Below are positions 544 to 27,409 of a stretch of 64,000 nt of DNA, piece after piece. A model generated the notes under the pieces. The model worked only from the letters and a program-made list of their open reading frames with translations, did not search any database and had not been told where the DNA came from. The stretch comes from Novosphingobium sp. CECT 9465. GTDB lineage: Bacteria > Pseudomonadota > Alphaproteobacteria > Sphingomonadales > Sphingomonadaceae. A program made the position numbers and the translations under genes. The stretch spans positions 3,334,501-3,398,500 of the forward strand of contig NZ_CAKLBX010000001.1 in assembly GCF_920987055.1 (NCBI RefSeq). The letters run 5' to 3'. Numbering within the stretch: position 1 is the stretch's first letter; each line of letters starts with the position of its first letter.

Positions 544-598
544 CTAAGAGGATTTTCTGCCTGACGGCGGCCAGAGTGGCCGCATGACAGGAGACGAA

Positions 599-913
599 AT
601 GAGCAGACGACCCCGCCGGAACCACAGCCCGGCATTTAAGGCGAAGATGGCGCTTGCTGCCGTGAAGGGCGAGAAGACGCTGGCTGAGTTGGCGCAGCTG
701 TTTGACGTCCACCCGAACCAGATCACGATGTGGCGCAGCCAGTTGCTGGATGGCGCGGCGGGCGTGTTCGGAGCAGATAGCGCGGCGGATTCACCCGAGC
801 CGGCAATCGACGTGAAGACGCTGCACGCCAAGATCGGCGAGCTGACGCTGGCGAATGATTTTTTGGCCGGCGCGCTCGGGAAGGCCGGTCTGTTGCCGAG
901 CGCAAAGCGATGA
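599..913 (+). CDS. IS3-family transposase OrfA
   Basis: A 104-residue HTH protein that binds IS ends and partners OrfB. The N-terminal helix-turn-helix region reads NHSPAFKAKMALAAVKGE then LAELAQLFDVHPNQITMW, typical of IS3-family OrfA; the C-terminal part is a leucine-rich helix. An AGGAG about 6 nt before the ATG at 599 supports that start over the ATG at 584. The stop overlaps the OrfB start in an ATGA at 910-913, so translation is probably coupled. Confidence 0.88.
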   Translation: MSRRPRRNHSPAFKAKMALAAVKGEKTLAELAQLFDVHPNQITMWRSQLLDGAAGVFGADSAADSPEPAIDVKTLHAKIGELTLANDFLAGALGKAGLLPSAKR

Positions 914-1279
914 TCGATCGTTCGCATGACCTGCCAGTGACGCGGCAAGCGCGGGAGTTGGGGATCAGCCGGGGCAGCGTCTACTACCTGCCGCGGCCGG
1001 TTTCGGAGGCCGATCTGGCGATCATGCGGCGGATCGACGAGTTGCACCTCGAGCTACCGTTCGCCGGGAGCCGGATGCTGCGCGATCTGCTGCGGCAGGA
1101 AGGCATCGAGATCGGCCGCCAACATGTTGCCACGCTGATGAAGAAGATGGCGATCGAGGCCATCTATCGCCGGCCGAACACGTCGAAGCCTGAGCCAGGT
1201 CACAAGATCTACCCCTATCTGCTGCGCAAGCTGCCGATCGTGCGGCCCAACCAGGTCTGGGCAACCGACATCAGCTACA
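910..1279 (+). CDS. IS3-family transposase OrfB, 5' exon
   Basis: This exon encodes the first 123 codons of the DDE transposase: an HTH_21-like region (residues about 10-100, with ISRGSVYYLPRP and GSRMLRDLLRQEGI) and the start of the rve integrase core at VWATDISY, which holds the first catalytic Asp. The reading frame is cut at 1279/1280 by a group II intron. Joining 1279 to 3520 restores DISY-I-P-MARGF and a continuous frame of 275 residues. Unspliced, the frame runs into intron sequence and stops at 1378-1380, leaving the other two catalytic residues untranslated. Confidence 0.88.
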
Positions 1280-1624
1280 GTGCGCCTCGTCCCGGATGGT
1301 CCGGGGTGCATATGACTGGAATGCAAAGGAGAAAGGAGGAACTGAACGAATGCCTTGCCCTCTGCTGTGAGGGGGCATGAGCCCAAGCGGCGGTGACCTG
1401 CCGTCAACTGGCAGGGTGACGTAGCCCGCAGGTAAAGGGGATTGAGGCGAAGCCGTTACGCCGAGATGGTCCCCGAGGCTGTAGCGCTGGAAGGTTGAGG
1501 AACACGAACCGGTTAATCCGCATCCGAGGGCTGAAATGTCGCCTTCGCCTACACGGCTTAACAGGCGGAATGCTGATGATGGCGCCGGAGACGTATGTCG
1601 GCGACATCCGAATGTGGCCGGAAA

Positions 1625-1630
1625 TGTAGC
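1625..1630 (+). other. Probable EBS1 of the group II intron (copy 1)
   Basis: TGTAGC is the exact complement of GCTACA, the last six nucleotides of the 5' exon (1274-1279). It lies in the loop of a 10-bp hairpin (arms 1612-1621 and 1631-1640, one G-U pair and one mismatch), 345 nt into the intron, where domain I is expected. This is how bacterial group II introns recognise their DNA target. A second TGTAGC at 1480-1485 is not in an evident loop. Confidence 0.65.
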
Positions 1631-1915
1631 CCGTCCGCATGGAGCCATGGAGAGAATGCAGCCAGGCCATGGCATCGGCATCGACTTGCGGGACGCAAGG
1701 ACAAGGACTGCGACCGGCAGCCTCCCCAGCGCGCGAAAGTCCAGCATATGAACGAGGGAAGGCATGATGGAATGCCAAGGGAGTTGGCCCCGATGTCCAC
1801 CGTGCTGGCGGAGTCCCCGTAGTAGTCCGCGACAGGGAAAGCCTGTCACATGGCGAAGGGGGACAGTTCAATCAGCTTGAAGTGCAAACTACCTGACCAA
1901 ACGAGGTGAAGACCT

Positions 1916-3445
1916 TTGATAATCAGCGAAATGCAGCACAAGCTCGCGACGTGGGCCGAGAGCGACCAGAACCGCAAGTTCGATCGCCTTCTCCGGCTCA
2001 TTGCCGATCGGGCGTGGCTTGCCGAGGCGGCTCGGATCGTGCTGGCGTCGAGTGGCGCCAATACGCCGGGCATCGACGGAATGGACAAGCGACGGATGCA
2101 GGCCGTACTGGCAGAACAGCTGGCCAGTCTGCGAACGGACTTGCTGACGGGGAGTTATCACCCGCAGCCGGTCAGGCGAATCTATATCCCGAAAGCCAAT
2201 GGCAAGAAACGACCACTTGGTATCCCGACCCTGAAAGACCGCATCGTCCAGCGCGCGATGCTGATGGCCATGGAGCCGATCTGGGAAAGCGACTTCCATC
2301 GCCTCTCCTACGGCTTCAGGCCGGAACGCAGCGTGCATCACGCTGTCCGGACCGTGAAGATACAGTTGCAGGATAGTGGTGCCGGAGCGCGGGGCCGCTG
2401 GATCATCGAAGGTGATCTGGCGAGCTACTTCGATACGGTCCACCACCGGCTTCTGCTTCGCTGCGTTCGGCGGCGAATCCGGGATGATCGGTTTGTTGAT
2501 CTGCTCTGGCGATTCCTGAAGGCGGGCCACGTCGACCGTGGCCTGTTCGTCGCCTCAAGCGAAGGTGTACCGCAAGGCGGCGTGCTGTCGCCGCTCCTGT
2601 CCAACATCATGCTCCATGAGTTTGATGCGTGGCTGGAGGCGAAATACCTGAGCGACAAGGCGCGAAAGGATCGCTGGGCATGGAACTTCGGCATCCAGCA
2701 GGGGCGCCCCATCACGGTTCGCGAGAACCGGCAATGGAAACCTGCTGTCGCCTACTGCCGTTACGCCGATGACTTCGTTGTCATCGTCAAGGGCACCAAG
2801 GCACATGCCGAGGCCATCCGCGAGGAATGCCGGGCCTTTCTGGAAGACGACCTGAAGCTGACGTTGAATATGGACAAGAGCCATATCACCCACGTCGACG
2901 ACGGGTTCGTGTTCCTCGGGCACCGGATTATCCGCAGGCGGGGATCGAGCGGACGCATGTCCGTGGTCTCAACGATACCCAAGGAGAAGGCCAAGACCTT
3001 CGCTCGCCGATTGGTCGAGGCTCTCTCCGGCAATCATGAGGTTGCCGCGGTGGACATGATCGACGGTCTGAACCGCCAGCTGGCGGGATGGGCTGCGTTC
3101 TACAGGTTCACCGACTTCACGGCGCGCACATTCCGGCGCATCGACACCGTCGTGTTCTGGAAAATGGCGCACTGGTTGGCGCAGAAGTACCGGTCCCGTA
3201 TCAAGCCTTTGATGCGTAAATGGTACCGCATGCCGGAAACCGGCCAATCGAAGACGTGGCTGGTCTACGGTCGAAGCAATCAGGGCAATGCCGTCGGCAA
3301 GGCGCTGCGACGACTGGTCACAAGCCAGAAGATGCAGTTCCGGTGGCGGAATCCGGAGCGAAATCCCTACATCTATCGGGACGAGCTCCGAAACACCGTC
3401 ACCTCCCGCTATCGTGATGTCGCCATGGCCTTGGACCAAGGTTGA
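1916..3445 (+). CDS. ltrA: Group II intron reverse transcriptase/maturase, copy 1
   Basis: A 509-residue intron-encoded protein. It has the RT fingers and palm (RRIYIPKANGKKRPLGIP near residue 85, SYGFRPERS near 125, EGVPQGGVLSPLLSNI near 215, and the catalytic CRYADDFVV near 285), followed by a maturase X domain (LNRQLAGWAAFYRF near 385). The C-terminus has no paired CxxC or HNH residues, so it lacks the endonuclease domain, as in RmInt1-like introns that retrohome through the replication fork. A GAGGTG lies 7 nt before a TTG at 1916; an ATG at 1931 is the alternative. It should assist splicing of the surrounding RNA and so restore the transposase mRNA. Confidence 0.92.
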   Translation: MIISEMQHKLATWAESDQNRKFDRLLRLIADRAWLAEAARIVLASSGANTPGIDGMDKRRMQAVLAEQLASLRTDLLTGSYHPQPVRRIYIPKANGKKRPLGIPTLKDRIVQRAMLMAMEPIWESDFHRLSYGFRPERSVHHAVRTVKIQLQDSGAGARGRWIIEGDLASYFDTVHHRLLLRCVRRRIRDDRFVDLLWRFLKAGHVDRGLFVASSEGVPQGGVLSPLLSNIMLHEFDAWLEAKYLSDKARKDRWAWNFGIQQGRPITVRENRQWKPAVAYCRYADDFVVIVKGTKAHAEAIREECRAFLEDDLKLTLNMDKSHITHVDDGFVFLGHRIIRRRGSSGRMSVVSTIPKEKAKTFARRLVEALSGNHEVAAVDMIDGLNRQLAGWAAFYRFTDFTARTFRRIDTVVFWKMAHWLAQKYRSRIKPLMRKWYRMPETGQSKTWLVYGRSNQGNAVGKALRRLVTSQKMQFRWRNPERNPYIYRDELRNTVTSRYRDVAMALDQG

Positions 3446-3450
3446 ATAGA

Positions 3451-3519
3451 GAGCCGTATGCGCTGAAAGGTGCACGTACGGTTCGGGGAGGGGAAGCGCT
3501 TATGCGCTTCCTACTCCAC
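3451..3519 (+). ncRNA. Group II intron domains V and VI (copy 1)
   Basis: Domain V spans 3451-3484: it starts GAGCCGTATG, has a GAAA-type cap at 3464-3467 and closes with CGTACGGTTC, the most conserved group II signature. Domain VI follows as a GC-rich hairpin around the TTAT loop at 3500-3503. An unpaired A at 3513, seven nucleotides from the intron end, is the expected branch point. The same structure is at 26740-26808 in the other copy. Confidence 0.92.
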
Positions 3520-3977
3520 TCCCGATGGCGCGGGGTTTCGTCTATCTGGTGGCTATCGTCGACTGGTTCAGCCGCAAGGTCCTGGCCCACCGGGTATCAA
3601 TCACGATGGAGGCCGACTTCTGCGTCGAGGCGCTTGAGGAAGCGTTGGCGCGGTATGGAAAGCCGGAGATTTTCAACACCGATCAAGGCAGCCAATTCAC
3701 GTCGCTGGCGTTCACCAGCGTGCTGCGCCGGGAGGAAATCGCCATCAGCATGGACGGACGCGGCGCCTGGCGCGACAATGTCGTCGTCGAACGCCTGTGG
3801 CGCTCGGTGAAGTACGAGGAAGTCTACCTGCGTGCCTACGCAGCGGTCAGCGAAGCCCGGGCGTCGATCGGTCGCTACCTGACCTTCTACAATGCCAGGA
3901 GGCCGCACTCGAGCCTGGCCGCCAAGACTCCGGATCAGGCATACTTTGACAACCTGCCGCTGGCGATGGCAGCATGA
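3520..3977 (+). CDS. IS3-family transposase OrfB, 3' exon
   Basis: This encodes the rest of the rve/DDE core: PMARGFVYLVAIVDWFSRKV, the second catalytic Asp in FNTDQGSQFTS, and the catalytic Glu in NVVVERLWRSVKYEEVYL, ending with the usual YLTFYNARRPHSSL motif. It is in frame with the 5' exon after intron removal (370 + 458 nt = 276 codons with stop). Read alone it has an internal ATG at 3525 but would lack the first catalytic Asp and the DNA-binding part, so it cannot be an active transposase unless the intron is spliced. Confidence 0.88.
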
Positions 3978-3986
3978 CCTTGGCCG

Positions 3987-4045
3987 CCGATATGGGCCGT
4001 CACTCCGGTCGGGCTACGCCCTTCCTGCATGACGGCCCATATCGG
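3987..4045 (+). terminator. Large hairpin downstream of the transposase, copy 1
   Basis: A perfect 16-bp inverted repeat (3987-4002 and 4030-4045) encloses a 27-nt loop just after the orfB stop and inside the IS. There is no T-run after it, so it may be a factor-dependent terminator or a shield against read-through rather than a standard intrinsic terminator. It is repeated at 27276-27334. Confidence 0.55.
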
Positions 4046-4120
4046 CAGTTCGAAACAGCAAGCGGCGGACGATCCACTAATCTGTTGCCAAACCCTGTGC
4101 AGACCAAACAAGCCACCTCT

Positions 4121-4201
4121 CACCTGCTTTCAGACCGGTCATCTTGCATTACCGGACAGGCCATTTCGGTCGATGGCGGGTTTACCGCGGGCTTCGACTG
4201 A
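4121..4201 (+). pseudogene. SDR C-terminal fragment at the right edge of IS copy 1
   Basis: Directly after the IS boundary a frame reads HLLSDRSSCITGQAISVDGG and ends with stop at 4199-4201. This is the standard end of a short-chain dehydrogenase (ITGQxxxVDGG). About 25 codons remain and the rest is missing. An SDR with intact N-terminal half and no C-terminus sits on the same strand at the left edge of IS copy 2 (23288-23832), so the two may be pieces of one gene, although about 60 residues between them are not found. Confidence 0.75.
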
Positions 4202-4465: not shown

Positions 4466-6949
4466 TCAGAAGGTATACCGAACCGAACCGCCATAGGTGA
4501 CCGGCGATGCCATGATGTACGACAGCGCGCCACCGCCCGAAGCCGAAGCCGAGGGCCCGACATAGTAGCGCTCGTTCAGCAGGTTGCGTGCAAAGGCGCT
4601 CACCGTCACCCGGTCATCGTACAGCTTGGCCAGCGAGACACGGGCATCAAGCGTATTGTACGACGGGATGTAGATTTCGCCTGCCAAGTACTTGTCCTGA
4701 TAGTGGAAATCGAGGTTGAAGCCCAACTGGCCGCCCAGCACCCGTTCCGGGTAGTCGTAGCTGATGCTGCCGTTGACCTGCCATTTCGGAGTGAAGAACA
4801 CAGAGGTGACCAGAAGCGAGTCGGCCGCGCCGGCGGCGGCGTAAACCGCCTGAACCTGCGGGTTCACCGTCAGCTTGTCGACCTTCACATCGGTGTAGGC
4901 AAAGTTGGCGCCAAGCGTCAGCCCCTCCACCGGGCGGATGGTGAAATCACCTTCGAAGCCCTTGATGATCAGATCCGCCTTGTTCAGCAGCAAGCCGCCC
5001 GAGGGAAGATCGGCAATACCGGTCGTCGTCTGGTAGTACTGGTAGCCCTTGTCCTTGCCACGGAAGGCTGCAAGGCTGAAGCTTCCGCCGATATTGCCAA
5101 TCGTGTAGCGGCCCTTGGTGCCGATCTCGACATCGGTATAGGTTTCCGGATCGAACAGCTGTGCTGTGCTGATCTTGTTCGGTACGGTAGGCGAGTTGTA
5201 GCCGCCCGGGCGATAGCCGCGGCGGGTCGTCGCGTAGAGCAGGAGGTCACGTGTCGCCTGCCAGTTGAGCGCGAAGGTATAAGTGCCCTTCGACGACTTC
5301 TGGTTGAAGACCTGCGCGATGGTCGATCCTGGCGAGGCTGCGGGGTCCGGGGTAAAGGCGTTGCTTTCGCACTGCTTTTCGGTCGGCAGGAAACCGAAGG
5401 CGCCAACCCGTGGCGGCGTACCGCCGTTCACCAGGCTGTAATCGGCAATGTAGACGCAGCCGGAGGTCTTGTCCCACGAATAGCGGTAGCCTGCGGTCGC
5501 GCTGAGCCCCTGGATAAAATCGGAGAAGTCATAGTCGACCTGTCCGTACACCGCCTTGGTCTGCTCGTGCTGGTAGTTCATGTTGGTGGTCACGTTCAGG
5601 CCGTTGAACACCGAAATGCCGTCTGCCTCGCGGCCGCCAACTCCGTTGGGCTTCGTCTCGTAATAAAAGCCGCCGATAACATACTTCAACTTGTTGTTGA
5701 ACAGCTGGCCGCTGAGCTGCAGCTCCTCGGTAATCTGCTGCAGGCGGACCCGATCGACCACATCGATGATGGCCAAGGCCGATCCGTCAATATCGGTGTT
5801 GTTATCGTCCTTGGTGGTCCGGTAGGCAAAGATATTCTTCACCTGCACGTTGTCTGTGACATCGATCGAGGTGGTGTTCGATACGCCGAATACGGTTGTC
5901 TTGCCATCGGGAATCATGTTCGTGTAGGCTTCACGCCCGGAAGGGTTGGCCTTGGCGAAGGCAATCGCCAGGTCGATGTCGCAGCTGGGCGAGGTGCCGC
6001 AGTGGAAGGTCGGGTTTAGCAATCCGCCCAGACCGAGCTGGGTCAGCGTGCTGGCCGGCAGCGAATAGACCGGCGTGCTGCCCGGGAAAAGACCGGCAAA
6101 TACAATGTTTGATCGGCCGCGCGACTGGTAGTAATCGAGCACGGTCAGGTTCGAAAAACCCGTAACCGGCTCTGCCAGAACGGAAACGCGCAGCCCCTTG
6201 TTGTCAATTTCGCCAGCATTGCGGGTGTTCGGAATGGCGCCGCCGGGCGCCGAGCTGAACGGGCCGGTCAGCGTATAGGGGGCATAGACATTGGTCTTGG
6301 TGAACCCGTCCGTGCTGGTTGACTGCCCTGCTAGGCGGATCGCCAGCTTGTCGGCCACGACCGGCAGATTAATCGCACCTTCGACGCGAAGCGAGTTGAA
6401 CCGGCCGTATTCGGCTTCGAGATAGCCGCCGAAGTTGTAGGTCGGCTTGCGCGAATTGGTAAGGACGGCACCGCCGATGGCGTTACGGCCGAACAGGGTA
6501 CCCTGTGGCCCCTTGAGGACCTGGATATTGTCCATATCGTAGGTGGTGATGATGCTGCCATAGCTGGGCAAGGGCACTTCGTTGAAATAGGTCAGCACGC
6601 CGGGCGTGCCCGGGCCGGCCAGGCCGCGCGACTGGCCGCGAATGGCGATGACCGGGTTAACCGACGAACCGGACAGCGAAAAGTTGAGGCCGGGCGTGAC
6701 CTTGGTCAGGTCGGCGGTGTTGAGGATCGACTTGCGCTGCAGCGTCTCGCCCGAAAAGGCGGTCACGGTCACCGGAATGCGGCTCAATTCCTCGCTGCGC
6801 CGACGCGCCGTAACCACGATGTCACCGGAAGGCGTATCGACACCTGCATCGGCAGACCGGATCTGCGAGGGTTCGGCCTGCGCATAGGCTGTGCCTACGT
6901 ATGCCAAATTAAGAACAGTACTCGCCAGCAAGCAGCGCTTGAATGTCAT
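4466..6949 (-). CDS. TonB-dependent outer-membrane receptor
   Basis: An 827-residue receptor for active uptake across the outer membrane. There is a signal peptide (residues 1-23, ending TAYAQA), a TonB box (DIVVTARRR at about 44-52), a plug domain (IPVTVTAFSGETL, then VLKGPQGTLFGRNAIGGAV) and a beta-barrel ending in a C-terminal Phe (SVRYTF). The type is the sphingomonad family usually found beside catabolic operons. GGGGAGAAG lies 4 nt before the ATG. It is on the same strand as the oxygenase cluster and is its last gene, after a 240-bp gap, so it may have its own promoter. The substrate is not evident; the neighbours suggest a hydrophobic cyclic compound. Confidence 0.93.
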   Translation of the reverse strand: MTFKRCLLASTVLNLAYVGTAYAQAEPSQIRSADAGVDTPSGDIVVTARRRSEELSRIPVTVTAFSGETLQRKSILNTADLTKVTPGLNFSLSGSSVNPVIAIRGQSRGLAGPGTPGVLTYFNEVPLPSYGSIITTYDMDNIQVLKGPQGTLFGRNAIGGAVLTNSRKPTYNFGGYLEAEYGRFNSLRVEGAINLPVVADKLAIRLAGQSTSTDGFTKTNVYAPYTLTGPFSSAPGGAIPNTRNAGEIDNKGLRVSVLAEPVTGFSNLTVLDYYQSRGRSNIVFAGLFPGSTPVYSLPASTLTQLGLGGLLNPTFHCGTSPSCDIDLAIAFAKANPSGREAYTNMIPDGKTTVFGVSNTTSIDVTDNVQVKNIFAYRTTKDDNNTDIDGSALAIIDVVDRVRLQQITEELQLSGQLFNNKLKYVIGGFYYETKPNGVGGREADGISVFNGLNVTTNMNYQHEQTKAVYGQVDYDFSDFIQGLSATAGYRYSWDKTSGCVYIADYSLVNGGTPPRVGAFGFLPTEKQCESNAFTPDPAASPGSTIAQVFNQKSSKGTYTFALNWQATRDLLLYATTRRGYRPGGYNSPTVPNKISTAQLFDPETYTDVEIGTKGRYTIGNIGGSFSLAAFRGKDKGYQYYQTTTGIADLPSGGLLLNKADLIIKGFEGDFTIRPVEGLTLGANFAYTDVKVDKLTVNPQVQAVYAAAGAADSLLVTSVFFTPKWQVNGSISYDYPERVLGGQLGFNLDFHYQDKYLAGEIYIPSYNTLDARVSLAKLYDDRVTVSAFARNLLNERYYVGPSASASGGGALSYIMASPVTYGGSVRYTF

Positions 6950-7588: not shown

Positions 7589-7609
7589 GTTCGCTCCTCC
7601 CTGTTATGC

Positions 7610-8398
7610 TTATGCCTCGACCACCTTCGGATCACCGACGCGCCATGGCGCCACACCGACCGTCCAGCCGCCATCACACACGATGTTCTCGCCGTTGATG
7701 AAGCCCGCATTATCCGACGCCAGGAAGGTCGCAAGCGCGCCGATATCTTCCGGTGCGCCGTTGCGCGTCACATAGGATACATCCAGCGCGGACTGGAGCG
7801 TGTCCTTCATCATTTCCCGAGCTTTGCCATGGGCGATGAAACCTGGGCAGATTGAGTTGCAGCGGACGCCCTGCTTACCATATTGCACCGCGGTGTTCTT
7901 GGTCAGCGAGATCACGCCCGACTTGGCCGCATTATAGCTGGTGAGCCAGCTATCGCCCACGAGACCACCGGTCGACGAAATGTTCACGATTGCTCCCTTA
8001 CTGACAATAAGATGAGGCAACGCGGCCTTTGTCGCGATAAATACCGCACGCAGGTTCGATTTAATGGACTTGTCGAAGGTCTCGATCTCAGTTTCGAGGA
8101 TGGTGCGGTCGGCATAGGTGAGGCTCGTATCCGCCGCATTGTTAACCAGAATGTCGAGCTTGCCATGGCAGTCGATCACCGTGCGCACCATCGAGAAGAT
8201 AGTGTCGGCGTCATAGGCGTCGAAGGACACCGCCATCGCATCGCGACCGATGTCCCGGGCGATTTTCTCAGCACCCTCGACATTGATGTCGGCCAGTACG
8301 AGCGTCGCGCCCTCGTCGGCCAAATGGCGGGCGATTTCCCGGCCGATGCCACCTGCCGCACCCGTGACAATGGCGACGCGATCATCGAGTTTTCCCAC
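7610..8398 (-). CDS. Short-chain dehydrogenase/reductase
   Basis: A 262-residue classical SDR. It has the cofactor motif TGAAGGIG near residue 12, an acidic residue after beta-2 (LADIN) that favours NAD+, NNAAD near 88, catalytic Ser in NISSTGG, YNAAK near 156-160, and the CPG turn. The C-terminal INGENIVCDGGW is standard. The start is GTG at 8398 with AGAGGA 7-8 nt upstream. It probably oxidises a secondary alcohol made by the oxygenases or hydrolase of the cluster. The tail after the VDGG-type motif is longer than usual. Confidence 0.9.
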   Translation of the reverse strand: MGKLDDRVAIVTGAAGGIGREIARHLADEGATLVLADINVEGAEKIARDIGRDAMAVSFDAYDADTIFSMVRTVIDCHGKLDILVNNAADTSLTYADRTILETEIETFDKSIKSNLRAVFIATKAALPHLIVSKGAIVNISSTGGLVGDSWLTSYNAAKSGVISLTKNTAVQYGKQGVRCNSICPGFIAHGKAREMMKDTLQSALDVSYVTRNGAPEDIGALATFLASDNAGFINGENIVCDGGWTVGVAPWRVGDPKVVEA

Positions 8399-8634: not shown

Positions 8635-9345
8635 TCAACCCGAAATCGTATATCCGCCGTCTACGGGGATCATCACGCCGGTAACGAAGCTACTTTCGGG
8701 TGCACACAAAAAGCCGATGACGTCGCCCAACTCAGATGCTTCCCCCCAGCGCCCCATCGGCGTACGCTGCAAGGCCGGACGAGACGCCTCGTCGTCCTCC
8801 CACATTGGTCGCGACATATTCGTCTTGATCCAGCCCGGCGCCACCGCGTTTACTCGGATGCCGTCCTTTGCCCAAGCGACTGCTAACGACCTGGTTAGAG
8901 CGGCGATGCCGCCTTTGCTGGCCGCATAGCCTGGAGTCATCGCGCTACCGAAGGTCGAATAGATTGATCCGATGTTCACGACTGCGCCGCCTTGGCGGGC
9001 CAGCAAGGGGTGCGCGGCCAGCGCCATGCTCATCGTGCCGGTCAGGTTGATGTCCAGCGTGCGGGCAAAGGTGGCGAGGTCAAACTCGCCGTAAATCGCC
9101 CGGCCTGCCGCATTGACCAGCGAATCCAGACGAGGAAGATCGGAAACCAGCGCAGCCACCGCATCGGCGTCGGTCACATCGAGGACGCGAGCGGTGATGC
9201 CCTGCTCCAGAGGGGTCAGGGCGATCTCGGCGGCGTCGATGCCGGTAACGATCACCTGGTAGCCTTGCCGCACGAGCGCACGCGCGCTGGCAAACCCAAT
9301 CCCCATCGGATGCGCGCCGCCGGTCACCAATGCGATCTTATTCAT
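8635..9345 (-). CDS. Short-chain dehydrogenase/reductase
   Basis: A 236-residue classical SDR with TGGAHPMGIG cofactor motif, NAAG near residue 79, Ser in NIGSIYS, YAASK near 144, and a VTGVMIPVDGG end. AGAGGA lies 9 nt before the ATG at 9345, so this start is preferred to the in-frame TTG at 9354. It lies between two other SDR genes with gaps of about 140-240 bp. All active-site residues are present. It is of the 3-oxoacyl-ACP reductase-like kind and the substrate cannot be told. Confidence 0.9.
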   Translation of the reverse strand: MNKIALVTGGAHPMGIGFASARALVRQGYQVIVTGIDAAEIALTPLEQGITARVLDVTDADAVAALVSDLPRLDSLVNAAGRAIYGEFDLATFARTLDINLTGTMSMALAAHPLLARQGGAVVNIGSIYSTFGSAMTPGYAASKGGIAALTRSLAVAWAKDGIRVNAVAPGWIKTNMSRPMWEDDEASRPALQRTPMGRWGEASELGDVIGFLCAPESSFVTGVMIPVDGGYTISG

Positions 9346-9485
9346 CGCGTTCAATCCTCTTCAGTTCGTTGAAGCCGCGTCAATTGACCCAGGAATGATT
9401 GCCGCGCGGCCAATTGCTCGCCCAAGCCCAACACGGAAACTACGCGCTTTTGGGTTTGGCATCCCGGCAGACCATTGGCTTGGAC

Positions 9486-13335: not shown

Positions 13336-13410
13336 GTGGTTGCTAGTCCCTTGCAATTCATGGGGCGCACCGCGCGTCATGACCCCCGTCGGAAATGCGG
13401 ATCCACCCGG

Positions 13411-17194: not shown

Positions 17195-17271
17195 AGGTCT
17201 CTCCTGTAAGGTTGGTCTTGGGTTCAAATGTTGGCAACCGGAGGAAATCCGGCAGCCCTCGCATCAAAAGG

Positions 17272-18038: not shown

Positions 18039-18878
18039 ATGAAAGTCCGCGCCCTTGAAGCCGACTTCACCGAAATCGGTCCGCGCTGGGCCGAAAACCG
18101 TGAATTTGCGCAGCTTTACAACGCAGCGTCGATCTGCCCGGCCTATCTCGAACCGTTTCTGGTCAAGGTGATGATCGAGGCGCGCAAGAGGCTGCGGCCG
18201 GATCAGAGCGTAATCGACGAGCAGATTCGCCTGTTTAACCTTCAGGAAATGCAGCACTGCAAGCAGCATATGGCGTTCAACAAGATGCTGTTCGCTCACT
18301 ATCCCGAGATCGAGCCGATGGCAAAGGCCTACGAGGCGGACTACAACCGCTTCCTCAAGACCCGGTCGCTGCAGGCCAACGTGGCCTACTGCGAGGGCTT
18401 CGAGGCGATGAGTGCCATCCCCACGACCTGTTTCTTCGAGGATTTCGACGAGCTGTGGGCAGGTGCGGACCCGCGCGCCGAAGCTCTTTGGAAGTGGCAT
18501 TTGGCCGAGGAATATGAGCACCGCGAAGTGGTTCATTCAGTCTACACGGCACTTTATGGGCGGGGACCAGTGGCCTATTTCGTCAGGATCTATGGCTTCT
18601 TTTTCGCTACTGCACATATCTTGTCTAACATCAACAAGATCGGCAAGTATTTGCTGGCGCGCGAGCGCGAAGGCATGACTGCGGAGCAGCTCGCAGCGTC
18701 CAAGGCCCGTGAGAAGCAGGTGACCAAATTGGCGAGCAAGCATTTCTTCAGGCATCTCCGGGCGATCCTCTCGCCATGGTACGATCCCGCCAAACGCCAG
18801 CCGCCGCGCGGGGTCAGCGAAGTGCTGGCGCGCGACAATGCGCCGGTGCCGATCGTGACGCGACCCGCGCTGGCCTGA
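18039..18878 (+). CDS. Ferritin-like diiron protein (predicted metal-dependent hydrolase family, PF10118)
   Basis: A 279-residue helical protein. Glu/His sets at EMQHCKQH (residues 70-77) and EEYEHREV (157-164), with other acids nearby, are what the COG3687/PF10118 family uses to bind two metals. GGGAGA lies 5 nt before the ATG at 18039; the in-frame ATG 168 bp upstream has no such signal. The family is poorly characterised. Its place between the oxygenase operon and a TetR regulator suggests an oxidative or hydrolytic step in the same pathway. A hydrophobic stretch (VRIYGFFFATAHIL, about 182-195) may be a buried helix. Confidence 0.85.
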   Translation: MKVRALEADFTEIGPRWAENREFAQLYNAASICPAYLEPFLVKVMIEARKRLRPDQSVIDEQIRLFNLQEMQHCKQHMAFNKMLFAHYPEIEPMAKAYEADYNRFLKTRSLQANVAYCEGFEAMSAIPTTCFFEDFDELWAGADPRAEALWKWHLAEEYEHREVVHSVYTALYGRGPVAYFVRIYGFFFATAHILSNINKIGKYLLAREREGMTAEQLAASKAREKQVTKLASKHFFRHLRAILSPWYDPAKRQPPRGVSEVLARDNAPVPIVTRPALA

Positions 18879-18967
18879 TCGGATCGGGAAGCACCGGCTG
18901 GCACGCGCCACATCTGATCCTGCGCCGGGATCCCGGATTCATCTTTGCCTCATTCGGGAAATGTCCG

Positions 18968-19648
18968 ATGTCTACGTCCGAAGCCTTGCCTGAAAGCTTG
19001 TTGGGCCCAACCGAATCTATAGGTCCGTCGGCCGACAACGAAACCTCGGTCGACCGGATTGTGACGGCTGCGCTGTCTGAATTCGCGCGTTTTGGCTTCG
19101 AAGCCGTGACAATGCAGCAAATCGCCCGCGCCGCAGGCGTAAGCACCAAGCTAGTTTATCACTACTTCGGGCGGAAGGAGACGCTCTATTTTGAGGCGCT
19201 GTTTCTGATGGCGCGCAGGTTCTTCGAAAAATTCGAATATCCTCCATTTGAATCCGGAGATCCCGTATCGGCTATCCGCCAGTTTGCCTTGCGCTATGCC
19301 GATTTCTATCTCGCAAATCCGCAGACAGGCCGCCTGATCCTGGATCAGGTGGTACGCGGCGGGCAGCAAATCCGGCGCAGTCGCTCACTCGAACGGCGGC
19401 GGGAAGACGATCTGCTCGAGCCATTGCGGCAGGTGTTAGGCGCGGGCGTCGCACGGGGTGAGTTCCGTCCAGACCTGTCCGCCGAAGGGTTGTTCTTCCA
19501 CGCCCTGATTGTCACCATTGGCTATTCGACCATGTCTAGCCTGCTGGGGCCGCTGCATCTTGGAATCCCGGATTTGGAGAATGCTGCGAACACGCGAGAT
19601 GTTGTTGCCGACGCTATCGTTGCCTTCGTAAGGAGTGTGCCTGCCTAA
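18968..19648 (+). CDS. TetR-family transcriptional regulator
   Basis: A 226-residue regulator. The N-terminal HTH covers residues 32-75 (MQQIARAAGVSTKLVYHYFGRKETLY), the signature TetR DNA-binding region. The C-terminal ligand domain includes a TetR_C-like stretch with QTGRLILDQ. It follows the diiron gene by 89 bp on the same strand and is likely co-transcribed. The probable targets are its own promoter region (inverted repeat at 17993-18011) and the divergent oxygenase operon; the ligand is unknown. The first 30 residues before the HTH are disordered and variable. Confidence 0.9.
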   Translation: MSTSEALPESLLGPTESIGPSADNETSVDRIVTAALSEFARFGFEAVTMQQIARAAGVSTKLVYHYFGRKETLYFEALFLMARRFFEKFEYPPFESGDPVSAIRQFALRYADFYLANPQTGRLILDQVVRGGQQIRRSRSLERRREDDLLEPLRQVLGAGVARGEFRPDLSAEGLFFHALIVTIGYSTMSSLLGPLHLGIPDLENAANTRDVVADAIVAFVRSVPA

Positions 19649-19820: not shown

Positions 19821-20560
19821 CTACAACCCATTTGCCAAGGGGCACTGACGCAATACCGAGGCGGTTGCCTGTCCGAGATTGGATTCGATAAAGGCAACCA
19901 CCTTGTCGTGGCTTTCCTGCCAGAGCGCGACAGCCTCTTCGACCTTGCGGTCGATCACGGCATCTAGGAACTTTCGATAGTCTTCGCTGAGTCGTCGCTC
20001 ATAACGGGCGAGTTCGCGGAACGTGTGACGATACCGCATTTGTTGGGCATAGAGCTGCGATCAAGCGCGAAGCAGCCACCGGTTCTCGCACTTCGAGAAC
20101 AAAATACGTTGAAAATCCTCGCGATGGCACACATAGTCATCCATGCTCATCTCGTCCTCCCCCACTTGGCCCAGCACCCGCGAGGAAATATGGTAGCCTG
20201 AGAGCAGCGCCCCCTCCCAAGCAAAATCGCTGCGGGCGATCGACGAACGCAATAGCGGCAATTCAATGGTAAGGCAGGCCTCGGCCAGTTCGCGAAAGCC
20301 GTCTGCCGAGATCGGCACCGCACGAAAGCCGCTGTTACGCTCGATGGTAACCAGCCCCTCTGCCGCAAGACGGGACAGGCCCTCGCGCGCGGTAGCCTGG
20401 CTGATATTGAGATCGCGCTGAAGCTGAGCGATCTTGAGCCGCGAACATGGCTTCAATCGGCAGGAAATTAACCCGGCACGGATCTGTACATAAGCGCGAT
20501 GCTCTGGTCATGACCCTCTAACACCTCCGGACTGTCGGAATTCTCGACCAATGCATTCAT
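19821..20560 (-). pseudogene. GntR (FadR-type) regulator, inactivated
   Basis: Pieces in two frames encode a GntR protein. A start at 20560 (MNALVENSDSPEVLE) shifts frame near 20505-20515 into YVQIRAGLISCRLKPCSRLK, then the winged helix (LQRDLNISQATAREGLSRL) and FCD domain. An in-frame TGA at 20061-20063 interrupts after ENRWLLRA, and the same frame continues with SQLYAQQMRYRHTF to 19821. With a frameshift in front of the DNA-binding domain and a stop inside the effector domain, no working regulator can be made. It probably once controlled the neighbouring catabolic genes. Confidence 0.85.
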
Positions 20561-21206: not shown

Positions 21207-22034
21207 ATGCGCAGATTCGACGGTCGTACCGCCATCGTCACGGGCGCAGCATCGGGTATCGGGGCGGCCACGGCGCGGCGCCTAGCCAGCGAAGGTGCTT
21301 CGGTGGTGGTAGCGGACATCAATTTGCCCGGTGCGGAAACGGTCGCACACGGCATCGGGGATGACGGCGGCATTGCCATCGCCGTGCGCATGGACCTTAA
21401 CGACGACGCCAGCATCAGTGCCATGGTGGCAACGACAGTGGACCACTTCGGCGGCCTGCGCGTTCTTCACAACAACGCCGCCGACATGCGCCCTTGGCAT
21501 CTCGACGAGGATATGGCCGTTGAATTTATGGACCCGGCCGTCTGGGACAGCATCTTCCATGCCAACACCCGCGGCACCATGCTGGCGACTAAGCATGCTC
21601 TGCCCGCACTGCTTGCGTCGGGCGATGCGGCCATCGTCAACACCAGTTCGGGGGCCAGTCTCACAGGTGATCTCTATCGTCCTGCCTACGGGGCCTCGAA
21701 GGCGGCGATCAACAATTTTACGATGTACGTGGCAACCCAGTACGGCAAGCGCGGCGTGCGCTGCAATGTCGTTTCGCCGGGTATCGTTGTCACACCCGCG
21801 GCCTCCGAAGCCTGCGACGACGATCGCTATGCGATGTTGATGCGCCACGTGTTGAGCCCGAACATCGGACGGCCGGAAGATCTGGCGGGCGTGGTCGCCA
21901 TGCTGGCGTCGGATGACGGGCGATATATCAATGGTCAGATCATTTCGGTGGATGGCGGAATCCGCGCGCACTTTGCCCATGTAGCCGATGTCGAAGCGAC
22001 ATTTTGGCAGGATATGAAGGCGCGCCATGCCTGA
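21207..22034 (+). CDS. Short-chain dehydrogenase/reductase
   Basis: A 275-residue classical SDR: TGAASGIG near residue 12, VADIN after beta-2 (NAD+ type), NNAAD near 90, Ser in NTSSGAS, YGASK near 168-172, SPG turn, and INGQIISVDGG. The C-terminal 20 residues (HVADVEATFWQDMKARHA) extend beyond the usual end. It is the first of two intact plus-strand genes and is followed 89 bp later by an EthD-domain protein, a common pairing in sphingomonad degradation clusters. Confidence 0.9.
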   Translation: MRRFDGRTAIVTGAASGIGAATARRLASEGASVVVADINLPGAETVAHGIGDDGGIAIAVRMDLNDDASISAMVATTVDHFGGLRVLHNNAADMRPWHLDEDMAVEFMDPAVWDSIFHANTRGTMLATKHALPALLASGDAAIVNTSSGASLTGDLYRPAYGASKAAINNFTMYVATQYGKRGVRCNVVSPGIVVTPAASEACDDDRYAMLMRHVLSPNIGRPEDLAGVVAMLASDDGRYINGQIISVDGGIRAHFAHVADVEATFWQDMKARHA

Positions 22035-22123
22035 CTGCGGAGGTAGCCAGCATCATATCAGTTGGGAGCTGCCTTTCGCTACCTAGCTTGTTCAGCAGAC
22101 ATCCGCCAGCAGAGGGTTTTCGC

Positions 22124-22849
22124 ATGTTCCGATTGACCACATTTCTTCGCCGCGCACCCGGCGTGAGCCGCGGGGATTTCGTTACTCAATGGACCGGAGC
22201 GCTGAGCGAGGCGATCATGGCCAACCCGCAGTTTCGCCGCTCCGTTCGCTCTTATGTGGTAAACCTGCCGTTCGACCATATTCCGGAAGAGTTTCTGTGG
22301 ATCGCCTGCAATGATTTCGACGGTGTAGCGGAATTGTGGTTCGATACTCTACCGGCAGCCGTTGTCACGGCGAACGCCATCTCAGCCGATCCCGCCGTGC
22401 AGGCTATCGCTTCGGGCATTATTGATATCGCGGCATGCGCAAGCTGGATCGGGCACGTTGTGGATGCGTTCGACAAGCCCGGAATAGCCGTCAAGCGGAT
22501 CGTCGCCGGGCAGCCTCGGCCCGATCTCAGTCTGGAGGCAGCGCAGGATTATTGGCTGCACGAACACTTGGCCTTCTTTTCGGGCTATAAGGAGTTCATG
22601 GCTTTCATACTGCGCTATCGGGCGATCTATGGCGTGCCCACGCAGGGCCTGCGCATCGCCAGCCATCGGTTGATGGCCATGTGTGCCGATGTGGGTTTCG
22701 CTTCGCTCCAGGATCTGTCGGATGCTTATCGCGAACCGCGCCATGCTGCCAACATGATGACCGACATCGTCAAATTTGGCGCGAGCGGCGGTGCAATAAC
22801 GTTCACCGCCGATAAGGTGAAAGTGCTGTCCGGCGCAGTCCTGGGCTAA
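22124..22849 (+). CDS. EthD-domain protein
   Basis: A 241-residue protein made of two dimeric alpha/beta-barrel (EthD-like) halves, the first from FRLTTFLRRAPGVSRGDFV and the second around LSLEAAQDYWLHEHLAFFSGY. Such proteins are found beside oxygenases and SDRs in degradation operons and often have no proven activity. An AGAGGG lies 7 nt before the ATG at 22124; the longer frame from 22004 overlaps the SDR and lacks such a signal. It may handle a ring-opened or hydroxylated intermediate. Confidence 0.75.
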   Translation: MFRLTTFLRRAPGVSRGDFVTQWTGALSEAIMANPQFRRSVRSYVVNLPFDHIPEEFLWIACNDFDGVAELWFDTLPAAVVTANAISADPAVQAIASGIIDIAACASWIGHVVDAFDKPGIAVKRIVAGQPRPDLSLEAAQDYWLHEHLAFFSGYKEFMAFILRYRAIYGVPTQGLRIASHRLMAMCADVGFASLQDLSDAYREPRHAANMMTDIVKFGASGGAITFTADKVKVLSGAVLG

Positions 22850-22935: not shown

Positions 22936-23270
22936 ACGACTGTCGGCGGGATCTTTCTCCCTCCGGCGATGCGTGGCGTAACGCAGCGCAATTGGATCGT
23001 GATGTCCCCGATGGCCTGGGTGGGCTGGCCCGGCGGGGTTCGGTCAGAAACGGCGGACGCCTATCATCTTCGTCGCGCCGGCATCGGCGGAGGCGTGATC
23101 ACCCTGCAGTCAAAAGCGCGCCCGAACTCAATGAGCGAATCGCGGCCGGCGAATTCGATCTTGCCGGGGCGGGTCACTCGCTGATCTCGGACCCGGCGTG
23201 GGCCGAAAAAGTGCGCGCGAACGGTGCGTTCCTGCCGTTCCATCCGCGCGTGCTCGCCACCATCGTATAA
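22936..23270 (+). pseudogene. NADH:flavin oxidoreductase (old yellow enzyme family), internally deleted
   Basis: One frame has the family N-terminus (RNWIVMSPMAWVGWPGG from about 22984, then SETADAYHLRRA). It breaks off near 23115. A second frame carries the family C-terminus (LNERIAAGEFDLAGAGHSLI, then DPAWAEKVR) and stops at 23270. Roughly 230 residues of the barrel are missing between them. The remnant shows that a flavin reductase was once part of the cluster. Confidence 0.75.
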
Positions 23271-23287
23271 CCAGCCAAGGGGAAGAG

Positions 23288-23832
23288 CGCGAGGGACGTC
23301 TGAAAGACAAGGTCATCCTGATCAATGGCGCTGGTTCGGGCATCGGCGCCGCCTGTGCGGCCGAATACGCGCGTGAAGGTGCCCGGGTGGTGGTGGGAAG
23401 CCAGAGCCGCTCGTCGGAGAAGGTCGCGGCCCAGATCGTGGCCTCGGGCGGCGATGCCAAGCCCTATTCCGCCGACATTTCCGACGAGGCGCAGGTCCGC
23501 GCGATGGTCGCGTTCACGCTCGAAACGTATGGCCGGATCGATGTGCTGCACAACAATGCGGCGATGACCGGGCCCGATATCATCACCCGCGACGTCGATG
23601 TGGTGAACATGGACGGCGACCTGTGGGACCGCACGATGGCGGTGAACGTCAAGGGGCCGATGTTCTGCGCCAAGCACGCGATTCCGCACATGATAGCCCA
23701 AGGCGGCGGCTCGGTGATCACCACCGGATCGCCCAAGGCGCTTCAGGGCGATCTCGCGCAGACGGCTTATGGCGCGTCGAAGGTGGCGGTCCACAACCTC
23801 ACAGAGGAGGCCTTGAGAATCTGGACAGGGTG
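23288..23832 (+). pseudogene. SDR, N-terminal part, cut by IS copy 2
   Basis: The frame reads RLKDKVILINGAGSGIG, NNAAM, Ser in TTGSPKALQ and YGASKVAVHNLT (residues 1 to about 168), then diverges for about a dozen codons and meets the IS at 23833. No ATG or GTG is found where the start should be (the codon before G-R-L-K is GAG), so translation is doubtful. The missing C-terminus may be the fragment at 4121-4201. Confidence 0.8.
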
Positions 23833-23887
23833 CTAAGAGGATTTTCTGCCTGACGGCGGCCAGAGTGGCCGCATGACAGGAGACGAA

Positions 23888-24202
23888 ATGAGCAGACGAC
23901 CCCGCCGGAACCACAGCCCGGCATTTAAGGCGAAGATGGCGCTTGCTGCCGTGAAGGGCGAGAAGACGCTGGCTGAGTTGGCGCAGCTGTTTGACGTCCA
24001 CCCGAACCAGATCACGATGTGGCGCAGCCAGTTGCTGGATGGCGCGGCGGGCGTGTTCGGAGCAGATAGCGCGGCGGATTCACCCGAGCCGGCAATCGAC
24101 GTGAAGACGCTGCACGCCAAGATCGGCGAGCTGACGCTGGCGAATGATTTTTTGGCCGGCGCGCTCGGGAAGGCCGGTCTGTTGCCGAGCGCAAAGCGAT
24201 GA
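23888..24202 (+). CDS. IS3-family transposase OrfA (copy 2)
   Basis: Identical in translation to the protein at 599-913, with the same AGGAG and ATGA overlap to orfB. See that entry for motifs. Confidence 0.88.
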   Translation: MSRRPRRNHSPAFKAKMALAAVKGEKTLAELAQLFDVHPNQITMWRSQLLDGAAGVFGADSAADSPEPAIDVKTLHAKIGELTLANDFLAGALGKAGLLPSAKR

Positions 24203-24568
24203 TCGATCGTTCGCATGACCTGCCAGTGACGCGGCAAGCGCGGGAGTTGGGGATCAGCCGGGGCAGCGTCTACTACCTGCCGCGGCCGGTTTCGGAGGCC
24301 GATCTGGCGATCATGCGGCGGATCGACGAGTTGCACCTCGAGCTACCGTTCGCCGGGAGCCGGATGCTGCGCGATCTGCTGCGGCAGGAAGGCATCGAGA
24401 TCGGCCGCCAACATGTTGCCACGCTGATGAAGAAGATGGCGATCGAGGCCATCTATCGCCGGCCGAACACGTCGAAGCCTGAGCCAGGTCACAAGATCTA
24501 CCCCTATCTGCTGCGCAAGCTGCCGATCGTGCGGCCCAACCAGGTCTGGGCAACCGACATCAGCTACA
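24199..24568 (+). CDS. IS3-family transposase OrfB, 5' exon (copy 2)
   Basis: Same as 910-1279: HTH_21-like region and the first catalytic Asp in WATDIS, cut by the intron at 24568/24569. Confidence 0.88.
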
Positions 24569-26808
24569 GTGCGCCTCGTCCCGGATGGTCCGGGGTGCAT
24601 ATGACTGGAATGCAAAGGAGAAAGGAGGAACTGAACGAATGCCTTGCCCTCTGCTGTGAGGGGGCATGAGCCCAAGCGGCGGTGACCTGCCGTCAACTGG
24701 CAGGGTGACGTAGCCCGCAGGTAAAGGGGATTGAGGCGAAGCCGTTACGCCGAGATGGTCCCCGAGGCTGTAGCGCTGGAAGGTTGAGGAACACGAACCG
24801 GTTAATCCGCATCCGAGGGCTGAAATGTCGCCTTCGCCTACACGGCTTAACAGGCGGAATGCTGATGATGGCGCCGGAGACGTATGTCGGCGACATCCGA
24901 ATGTGGCCGGAAATGTAGCCCGTCCGCATGGAGCCATGGAGAGAATGCAGCCAGGCCATGGCATCGGCATCGACTTGCGGGACGCAAGGACAAGGACTGC
25001 GACCGGCAGCCTCCCCAGCGCGCGAAAGTCCAGCATATGAACGAGGGAAGGCATGATGGAATGCCAAGGGAGTTGGCCCCGATGTCCACCGTGCTGGCGG
25101 AGTCCCCGTAGTAGTCCGCGACAGGGAAAGCCTGTCACATGGCGAAGGGGGACAGTTCAATCAGCTTGAAGTGCAAACTACCTGACCAAACGAGGTGAAG
25201 ACCTTTGATAATCAGCGAAATGCAGCACAAGCTCGCGACGTGGGCCGAGAGCGACCAGAACCGCAAGTTCGATCGCCTTCTCCGGCTCATTGCCGATCGG
25301 GCGTGGCTTGCCGAGGCGGCTCGGATCGTGCTGGCGTCGAGTGGCGCCAATACGCCGGGCATCGACGGAATGGACAAGCGACGGATGCAGGCCGTACTGG
25401 CAGAACAGCTGGCCAGTCTGCGAACGGACTTGCTGACGGGGAGTTATCACCCGCAGCCGGTCAGGCGAATCTATATCCCGAAAGCCAATGGCAAGAAACG
25501 ACCACTTGGTATCCCGACCCTGAAAGACCGCATCGTCCAGCGCGCGATGCTGATGGCCATGGAGCCGATCTGGGAAAGCGACTTCCATCGCCTCTCCTAC
25601 GGCTTCAGGCCGGAACGCAGCGTGCATCACGCTGTCCGGACCGTGAAGATACAGTTGCAGGATAGTGGTGCCGGAGCGCGGGGCCGCTGGATCATCGAAG
25701 GTGATCTGGCGAGCTACTTCGATACGGTCCACCACCGGCTTCTGCTTCGCTGCGTTCGGCGGCGAATCCGGGATGATCGGTTTGTTGATCTGCTCTGGCG
25801 ATTCCTGAAGGCGGGCCACGTCGACCGTGGCCTGTTCGTCGCCTCAAGCGAAGGTGTACCGCAAGGCGGCGTGCTGTCGCCGCTCCTGTCCAACATCATG
25901 CTCCATGAGTTTGATGCGTGGCTGGAGGCGAAATACCTGAGCGACAAGGCGCGAAAGGATCGCTGGGCATGGAACTTCGGCATCCAGCAGGGGCGCCCCA
26001 TCACGGTTCGCGAGAACCGGCAATGGAAACCTGCTGTCGCCTACTGCCGTTACGCCGATGACTTCGTTGTCATCGTCAAGGGCACCAAGGCACATGCCGA
26101 GGCCATCCGCGAGGAATGCCGGGCCTTTCTGGAAGACGACCTGAAGCTGACGTTGAATATGGACAAGAGCCATATCACCCACGTCGACGACGGGTTCGTG
26201 TTCCTCGGGCACCGGATTATCCGCAGGCGGGGATCGAGCGGACGCATGTCCGTGGTCTCAACGATACCCAAGGAGAAGGCCAAGACCTTCGCTCGCCGAT
26301 TGGTCGAGGCTCTCTCCGGCAATCATGAGGTTGCCGCGGTGGACATGATCGACGGTCTGAACCGCCAGCTGGCGGGATGGGCTGCGTTCTACAGGTTCAC
26401 CGACTTCACGGCGCGCACATTCCGGCGCATCGACACCGTCGTGTTCTGGAAAATGGCGCACTGGTTGGCGCAGAAGTACCGGTCCCGTATCAAGCCTTTG
26501 ATGCGTAAATGGTACCGCATGCCGGAAACCGGCCAATCGAAGACGTGGCTGGTCTACGGTCGAAGCAATCAGGGCAATGCCGTCGGCAAGGCGCTGCGAC
26601 GACTGGTCACAAGCCAGAAGATGCAGTTCCGGTGGCGGAATCCGGAGCGAAATCCCTACATCTATCGGGACGAGCTCCGAAACACCGTCACCTCCCGCTA
26701 TCGTGATGTCGCCATGGCCTTGGACCAAGGTTGAATAGAGAGCCGTATGCGCTGAAAGGTGCACGTACGGTTCGGGGAGGGGAAGCGCTTATGCGCTTCC
26801 TACTCCAC
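24569..26808 (+). mobile_element. Group II intron inside IS3 orfB (copy 2)
   Basis: Same 2,240-nt intron as 1280-3519, at the same exon junction. The EBS1 loop is at 24914-24919, domain V at 26740-26773 and the branch-point A at 26802. Presence at the same nucleotide in both IS copies means that the intron was already in the IS before duplication, or that each copy was invaded at the same target. Confidence 0.93.
25205..26734 (+). CDS. ltrA: Group II intron reverse transcriptase/maturase (copy 2)
   Basis: Identical in translation to 1916-3445 (509 residues, YADD active site, maturase X domain, no endonuclease domain). Either copy could supply the protein for splicing of both introns. Confidence 0.92.
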   Translation: MIISEMQHKLATWAESDQNRKFDRLLRLIADRAWLAEAARIVLASSGANTPGIDGMDKRRMQAVLAEQLASLRTDLLTGSYHPQPVRRIYIPKANGKKRPLGIPTLKDRIVQRAMLMAMEPIWESDFHRLSYGFRPERSVHHAVRTVKIQLQDSGAGARGRWIIEGDLASYFDTVHHRLLLRCVRRRIRDDRFVDLLWRFLKAGHVDRGLFVASSEGVPQGGVLSPLLSNIMLHEFDAWLEAKYLSDKARKDRWAWNFGIQQGRPITVRENRQWKPAVAYCRYADDFVVIVKGTKAHAEAIREECRAFLEDDLKLTLNMDKSHITHVDDGFVFLGHRIIRRRGSSGRMSVVSTIPKEKAKTFARRLVEALSGNHEVAAVDMIDGLNRQLAGWAAFYRFTDFTARTFRRIDTVVFWKMAHWLAQKYRSRIKPLMRKWYRMPETGQSKTWLVYGRSNQGNAVGKALRRLVTSQKMQFRWRNPERNPYIYRDELRNTVTSRYRDVAMALDQG

Positions 26809-27266
26809 TCCCGATGGCGCGGGGTTTCGTCTATCTGGTGGCTATCGTCGACTGGTTCAGCCGCAAGGTCCTGGCCCACCGGGTATCAATCACGATGGAG
26901 GCCGACTTCTGCGTCGAGGCGCTTGAGGAAGCGTTGGCGCGGTATGGAAAGCCGGAGATTTTCAACACCGATCAAGGCAGCCAATTCACGTCGCTGGCGT
27001 TCACCAGCGTGCTGCGCCGGGAGGAAATCGCCATCAGCATGGACGGACGCGGCGCCTGGCGCGACAATGTCGTCGTCGAACGCCTGTGGCGCTCGGTGAA
27101 GTACGAGGAAGTCTACCTGCGTGCCTACGCAGCGGTCAGCGAAGCCCGGGCGTCGATCGGTCGCTACCTGACCTTCTACAATGCCAGGAGGCCGCACTCG
27201 AGCCTGGCCGCCAAGACTCCGGATCAGGCATACTTTGACAACCTGCCGCTGGCGATGGCAGCATGA
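26809..27266 (+). CDS. IS3-family transposase OrfB, 3' exon (copy 2)
   Basis: Same as 3520-3977: second Asp in NTDQGSQ, Glu in VVERLW, C-terminal YNARRPHSSL. The 16-bp inverted repeat follows at 27276-27291 and 27319-27334. Confidence 0.88.
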
Positions 27267-27409
27267 CCTTGGCCGCCGATATGGGCCGTCACTCCGGTCG
27301 GGCTACGCCCTTCCTGCATGACGGCCCATATCGGCAGTTCGAAACAGCAAGCGGCGGACGATCCACTAATCTGTTGCCAAACCCTGTGCAGACCAAACAA
27401 GCCACCTCT

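Follow-up and report, generated by a model that had tools for sequence, protein, structure and literature searches.

The group II intron E.c.I4, a member of class A (PMC3552965; PMC4244168), is described as targeting IS3-type transposases (IS629, IS911, ISEc16 and ISEc31) with up to 15 copies per genome (PMC3522654), and three nearly identical members of class A were in the database at the time of one of these reports (PMC4244168). RmInt1 in ISRm2011-2 of Sinorhizobium meliloti is the better-studied analogue of a group II intron borne by an insertion sequence (IS) and has no endonuclease domain (PMC5894124; PMC4238363), whereas its host IS belongs to the IS630 family and the intron itself to class D (PMC5894124). 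Sphingomonad catabolic genes between identical ISs are described for Sphingomonas sp. XLDN2-5, where copies of IS6100 bracket the car/ant loci, the end genes are cut by the IS, one IS is interrupted by another and no direct repeat lies outside; IS6100 is of the IS6 family, with a cointegrate mechanism, and the accessible part of that report mentions no intron (PMC2848856). In the pseudo-compound transposon Tn7086, directly repeated copies of IS1216E are associated with a circular unit containing one IS (PMC13055272). Here we compare with these systems a stretch of 64,000 nucleotides from Novosphingobium sp. CECT 9465 (the window, C1:3334501-3398500 of a 4.39-Mb genome in six contigs, one of them of 3.74 Mb), in which an initial annotation had seen an almost purely catabolic segment of 19.7 kb between two identical, directly oriented ISs that carry the same group II intron. 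No title or abstract opening in our literature search describes a segment bracketed by two ISs with the same group II intron, a weak negative as subscription journals were thinly covered.

Base-by-base comparison of 544-4120 with 23833-27409 gave 0 differences over 3,577 bp, in direct orientation and at the constant offset of 23,289 that had been claimed. The identity breaks off sharply at both edges, and no further repeats at E ≤ 1e-5 were found when the window was compared with itself by blastn. Together with the Pfam content of the locus, this alignment bears out the two identical intron-bearing ISs around a catabolic segment. The repeated unit of 3,577 bp is not the whole IS, however, which starts 30 bp upstream of the repeat: a left end AGAGGTSG.. 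lies at this distance in three of four plasmid relatives (L045-L047, where it reads AGAGGTGGC or AGAGGTCGC; not in L048) and also in all six genus-genome loci for which both ends could be read, and the right end ..CCAC(C/T)TCT was detected in L045, L046 and the same six genus loci. Copy 2, at 23803-27409, therefore has its full length of 3,607 bp. For copy 1 the initial 33 bp (100%) were found just left of the window at C1:3334150-3334182 (locus L070), beyond an 861-bp IS5-type element (C1:3334183-3335043; one copy found in the genome) that entered the IS 33 bp from its left end with a CTA/CTA target duplication. Both copies are thus complete, and identical over 3,607 bp apart from the IS5-type insertion that later hit copy 1; a shortening of copy 1 by deletion was rejected, as its left end is present upstream. 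Searches with both IS ends located the window IS twice in the genome, one of these searches having scored 40 of 76 candidates, so that more diverged copies may exist.

The flanking unit belongs to the IS3 family. It comprises 1,367 bp in spliced form and a 2,240-bp group II intron within orfB; the spliced IS has the inverted ends AGAGGAGGCCTTG / AGAGGTGGCTTGT, orfB (from 910) begins within orfA (584-913), and spliced OrfB scored 253 bits for the IS3 family (cut-off 160). A short target duplication of 3 bp was present in three of the eight relatives with both flanks (TCA in L046, CTG in L118, CAA in L128) and absent from the other five (L045, L122, L123, L127 and L131). The intron shows a domain V, a GTGYG start, an AY end and an open reading frame (ORF) for a reverse transcriptase/maturase, in which Pfam reported no endonuclease domain, and its 3' part is predicted to fold stably (z -4.97 for 3440-3525). 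In total 20 copies were found in this genome, all identical: the window IS accounts for two of them, a second IS for 16, and a diverged form of this second IS (88% in the left and 91% in the right exon) for the other two. These searches scored 40 of 92 candidates for intron copies and 40 of 57 for copies of the second IS, and more diverged copies may exist. The insertion codon is the same in 20 of 20 copies, in an IS3-type orfB directly after TD[IF][ST]Y, which we take to be the motif of the first catalytic aspartate from the role of this residue in DDE transposases. Outside the intron the window IS and the second IS have no DNA match; the second IS scored 179.5 for IS3 against the cut-off of 160 and higher, yet below the cut-off, for IS481 (204 vs 224). 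Its 22 near-identical copies, 16 with and six without the intron, show the pattern expected if the intron homes into, or is lost from, an active population of ISs. One intron-free copy (G000:C1:3542924-3545227), flanked by a duplication of 7 bp, seems to have split another short-chain dehydrogenase/reductase (SDR) gene. The same intron is present in both bracketing ISs, as annotated, but it is not special to the segment: with 20 identical copies in two IS types its presence in both needs no special explanation and is the expected outcome of a high-copy IS3-homing intron.

Outside this genome the position of the intron was similar. We examined 18 intron loci (three of this genome, 14 on named plasmids and one of another genome, G070), the plasmid loci being chosen from matches to the whole IS-plus-intron query and hence biased towards similar ISs. 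The 5' motif was present at 17 of them, four of which (Halomonas, E. coli, B. japonicum USDA 123 and G070) were resolved on the 5' side only; counting other genomes alone, it was present at 14 of 15. The exception is a plasmid of Novosphingobium sp. EMRT-2 (L049, about 3005-5244), where the intron lies in a putative TonB-type receptor ORF. In the genus, a search with the intron alone that scored two candidates per genome gave a match in 40 of 195 genomes (own included). Among 19 loci examined from this search, both junctions could be placed at nine, eight of them in the motif; of the other ten, two showed just a transposase-like 3' side, two a 3' side of uncertain identity and six neither side; G070 is counted in both sets. 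In L176 (G027, about 1501-3740) the intron lies in a small unrelated ORF and not in a transposase, and the insertions in EMRT-2 and G027 both follow a Y codon with similar target bases. An intron 100% identical over 2,240 bp was detected in another species (L174, G005:C3:66366-68605) within a different IS, 77% identical to the window IS over 374 bp, indicating recent movement of the intron between species. In L175 (G062:C33; intron about 1501-3739, 99.4% identical) the 5' exon is of the second-IS type (85% over 471 bp), the 3' exon of the window-IS type (76% over 316 bp), and the frame is open across the intron; the transposase is either chimeric or misassembled, the genome being in about 670 contigs. 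The window-IS family itself gave a match in 68 of 195 genus genomes, and of the 30 loci examined 15 were free of the intron at the site, three carried it (own genome included) and in 12 the site was absent or unclear. Class-wide, no full-length intron was found elsewhere among 385 genomes (own included, two candidates each), 11 other genomes having short matches. Among plasmid records, Novosphingobium sp. P6W was the most similar for the full unit and Novosphingobium sp. EMRT-2 for the intron.

The intron protein is 68% identical (pairwise amino acid comparison) to its counterpart from an E. coli plasmid, and the intron DNA, where alignable, shows 67% identity to the E. coli and 71% to the Halomonas intron. 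As here, three intron loci in E. coli, the one with the 68% identical protein among them, follow the same motif (VTDITY, VADFTY and CGDVTY). Introns about 93.5% identical to the E. coli one were found mostly under the annotation of an IS3-family transposase (among the 25 of 3,207 records listed), and these matches include the ykfC fragment of MG1655, a strain listed with an E.c.I4 fragment (PMC3522654); the E. coli query is thus tied to E.c.I4 through the MG1655 fragment and not through an E.c.I4 reference sequence. From this and from the fixed position in IS3-type transposases (20 of 20 own copies; 14 of 15 and 8 of 9 elsewhere, with the exceptions EMRT-2 and G027), we file the intron as E.c.I4-like and as a putative member of class A by pairwise identity (68%), not by an ORF tree. 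It differs from E.c.I4 in being alphaproteobacterial, in its 20 identical copies in two IS types and in its residence within both ISs that bracket a catabolic segment.

The flanks of the two window copies read TAA/CAC (copy 1) and CAC/GCT (copy 2). Neither own pair matches, the outer pair TAA/GCT does not match either, and the inner pair CAC/CAC is the only match. As five of the eight relatives also have no duplication, its absence here is weak evidence. Among 24 copies of the second IS or its variant, only three were flanked by an exact duplication of at least 3 bp (L007, 10 bp; L008, 8 bp; L100, 7 bp), and loss or exchange of IS flanks therefore looks common in this genome. The left flank of L103 (second IS, C1) and the right flank of L004 (variant, C3) have an 11-base string in common, at most one base away from the IS end, which points to an exchange of flanks between contigs. 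Similarly, L005 on a small contig (G000:C6:4359-7504) has the left flank of L015 and the right flank of L018, both from C1, as might be left by recombination between two chromosomal IS copies or by a fault of assembly. At the inner borders the ISs cut two SDR genes, here called SDR-A (at copy 2) and SDR-B (at copy 1). The SDR-B fragment gave weak matches to the C-termini of other SDRs in the genome (best other E 5.8e-4), and SDR-A has a paralogue at C1:312995-313816. All eight SDR-A relatives examined have a longer C-terminus that differs from the fragment at 4121-4201, so that the simple version of a model in which one IS entered a single SDR gene, whose halves now lie at the two inner borders, was rejected. 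For the remainder of SDR-A no counterpart was detected elsewhere in the genome; apart from the locus itself, a full-length paralogue alone came near 89% among 71 matches.

From the identity of the two copies, their ends, the intron and the flanks, it is probable that the bracket goes back to an intron-invaded IS3 element and arose by recombination between IS copies, possibly with integration of a circle, and not by composite transposition. An E.c.I4-like group II intron would have invaded an IS3-family IS by homing into the codons round the first catalytic aspartate and would be spliced from the transposase mRNA, as the continuous spliced orfB frame suggests, and the IS may transpose with the intron aboard. 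Copies of the IS would then have recombined with each other, leaving two of them round 19.7 kb of catabolic genes; possibly a circle of the segment and one IS integrated into a resident IS, which would leave the inner pair alone matching, as with CAC/CAC. The direct orientation of the ISs and a circular unit with one IS recall Tn7086, whose ISs are of the IS6 type and whose circles were measured (PMC13055272), whereas our locus involves the IS3 family and is known from sequence alone. For the same reason of family it does not fall among the pseudo-compound transposons of the IS6/IS26 type, despite the direct orientation. The initial annotation had also held that the direct repeats allow loss or amplification of the segment, and we agree: identical repeats of 3.6 kb are suited to RecA-type events and would permit a 23.3-kb circle to be excised, or the segment to be deleted or amplified, in a RecA-dependent manner. 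Several points weigh against the proposed recombination. The inner match comprises 3 bp in one of four pairings, for which the probability of one or more chance matches is about 6%. As the inner flanks derive from two different SDR genes, a circle would need a prior fusion of SDR-A and SDR-B. As five of eight relatives have no duplication, the two copies may also stem from old independent insertions whose duplications have disappeared. For RmInt1, inefficient splicing within its host IS and a block of that IS have been reported (PMC5894124).

Such independent insertions, into two SDR genes of an older cluster whose outer halves were lost by adjacent deletions, would explain why different SDR genes lie at the two inner flanks, why the right outer side is a transposase fragment and why duplications are missing here as in most relatives; we nevertheless regard them as unlikely, since neither copy has its own duplication and the second half of SDR-A did not turn up among the 71 matches in the genome. 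A true composite transposon, in which the two ISs moved the 19.7-kb segment as a unit to this site, is clearly improbable. Two complete, identical and direct copies of one IS do enclose catabolic genes, with genes truncated at the inner edges, and the outer ends are present, though the left end of copy 1 is set apart by the IS5-type insertion; yet the outer flanks TAA and GCT share no 3-bp duplication, and no second location was found, as no listed match beyond this locus covers more than about 1.1 kb of the segment in 148 genomes (own included, two candidates each). The resemblance to a composite transposon seen in the initial annotation is therefore not supported. A perfect repeat of 3.6 kb is also of the type that short-read assemblies get wrong, but a wrongly duplicated IS is very improbable in an assembly of so few contigs, with copy 1 marked by its own IS5-type insertion and all four flanks differing.

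The segment between the IS copies spans 4121-23802 (19,682 bp; Table 1), which agrees with the size proposed before, and the Pfam content agrees with its catabolic nature; the right border lies at 23802 and not at 23832. Pfam detected a TonB plug, two Rieske/Ring_hydroxyl_A proteins, a P450, several SDRs, an alpha/beta hydrolase, TetR- and GntR-type regulators and an EthD-domain protein. As the TetR domain begins at residue 95 of its ORF, the real start is probably inside it. For the P450, the Rieske proteins and the SDRs, matches were limited to broad families and to solved structures, with no substrate indicated.

Table 1. Features of the window around the bracketed catabolic segment (window positions).
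Feature	Position	Strand	Basis
Right part of 861-bp IS5-type element	1..543	-	Pfam DUF4096 (IS4/5 transposase), ORF 16-522
IS copy 1 (IS3 family), base 31 to right end	544..4120	+	100% identical to 23833-27409
orfA, IS copy 1	584..913	+	Pfam HTH_Tnp_1; NCBIfam IS3 partial, below cut-off
orfB 5' exon, to ...ATDISY	910..1279	+	Continuous spliced frame
Group II intron, 2,240 bp, GTGCG...CTCCAC	1280..3519	+	Boundaries from 20 identical copies in differing exon contexts
Intron-encoded reverse transcriptase/maturase, 509 aa	1916..3445	+	Pfam RVT_1 and GIIM; TIGR04416 345.9 bits vs 300
Intron domains V and VI	3449..3519	+	Rfam RF00029 70.6 bits
orfB 3' exon	3520..3977	+	Pfam rve
SDR-B, C-terminal 26 codons and stop, cut by IS copy 1	4121..4201	+	Translation
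TonB-dependent receptor	4466..6949	-	Pfam PF07715
SDR	7610..8398	-	Pfam
SDR	8635..9354	-	Pfam
SDR	9486..10298	-	Pfam
Cytochrome P450	10743..12047	-	Pfam; 86% aa in S. fontiphilum
Rieske oxygenase alpha subunit	12085..13380	-	Pfam; 70% aa in S. fontiphilum
SDR	13411..14226	-	Pfam
Alpha/beta hydrolase	14487..15353	-	Pfam
Rieske oxygenase alpha subunit	15911..17227	-	Pfam
TetR-family regulator	18776..19648	+	Pfam
GntR-type DNA-binding domain	20061..20456	-	Pfam 30.1 bits vs 27
SDR	21207..22034	+	Pfam
EthD-domain protein	22004..22849	+	Pfam
SDR-A, N-terminal part, cut by IS copy 2	23198..23802	+	DNA match to own paralogue stops exactly at 23802
IS copy 2, complete, 3,607 bp including intron	23803..27409	+	Ends set by relatives
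Group II intron in IS copy 2	24569..26808	+	Identical to 1280-3519
Transposase gene fragment adjoining IS copy 2	27410..28034	+	Pfam DDE_Tnp_1_4

When relatives were searched for the segment without the IS, a related cluster (50-86% amino acid identity, other gene order) was found in Sphingobium fontiphilum, and within the 18.8 kb around its Rieske gene the window IS had no match; the catabolic cluster is thus not tied to this IS. The best matches there were 86% for the P450, 81, 80 and 58% for SDRs, 73% for the TonB receptor, 70 and 61% for the Rieske proteins, 69% for EthD and 50% for TetR. A Rieske protein with 97% identity (P0121) is encoded on a metagenome contig of 18.6 kb. A P450 match at E ≤ 1e-100 was obtained in three of 397 family genomes (own included, four candidates each), one other reaching 85%. 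In the 148 genomes mentioned above mostly the hydrolase region and short pieces match, the longer ones at about 64-78%, and among 72,556 plasmid records one matched the segment, in two places, the best covering 44 bases. The G+C content of the segment (0.607) is near that of the right (0.619) and the left side (0.629), so that composition does not mark the segment as foreign.

The transposase fragment adjoining copy 2, which we take to be of the IS1380 type, has four DNA matches of 80-81% elsewhere in the genome, each beginning at 27411. A tyrosine integrase and a tRNA-Cys lie 1.7-3.2 kb right of copy 2 (window 29150-30638) with housekeeping-type genes beyond, and the region may therefore be the end of an older integrated element or island. 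A tRNA-Cys-borne island with a second attachment site was rejected, as the 27-base tRNA-end pattern (≤3 mismatches) was found at one genome place only. The 20 kb to the left contain efflux components, another SDR and a phosphotransferase-like ORF.

Taken alone, the bracket is one more example of ISs framing degradation genes, and like the XLDN2-5 loci it has end genes cut by the IS, one IS interrupted by another and no direct repeat outside (PMC2848856). The combination is unusual, while the elements and the intron from which it is built belong to known types. An identical 2.24-kb block planted in ISs that have no DNA match outside the intron, and the chimera L175, lead us to a speculative and rather unlikely further reading, in which intron homing at one catalytic codon of unlike transposases would form a recombination bridge that links ISs genome-wide, creates long direct repeats by which catabolic segments are mobilised, and can shuffle transposase halves. 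The more general point is that an alphaproteobacterial E.c.I4-like intron appears to home to highly conserved codons of the IS3 family. Such an intron could draw on a very large family of ISs for its target, and the long identical repeats it creates could drive rearrangement near catabolic genes.

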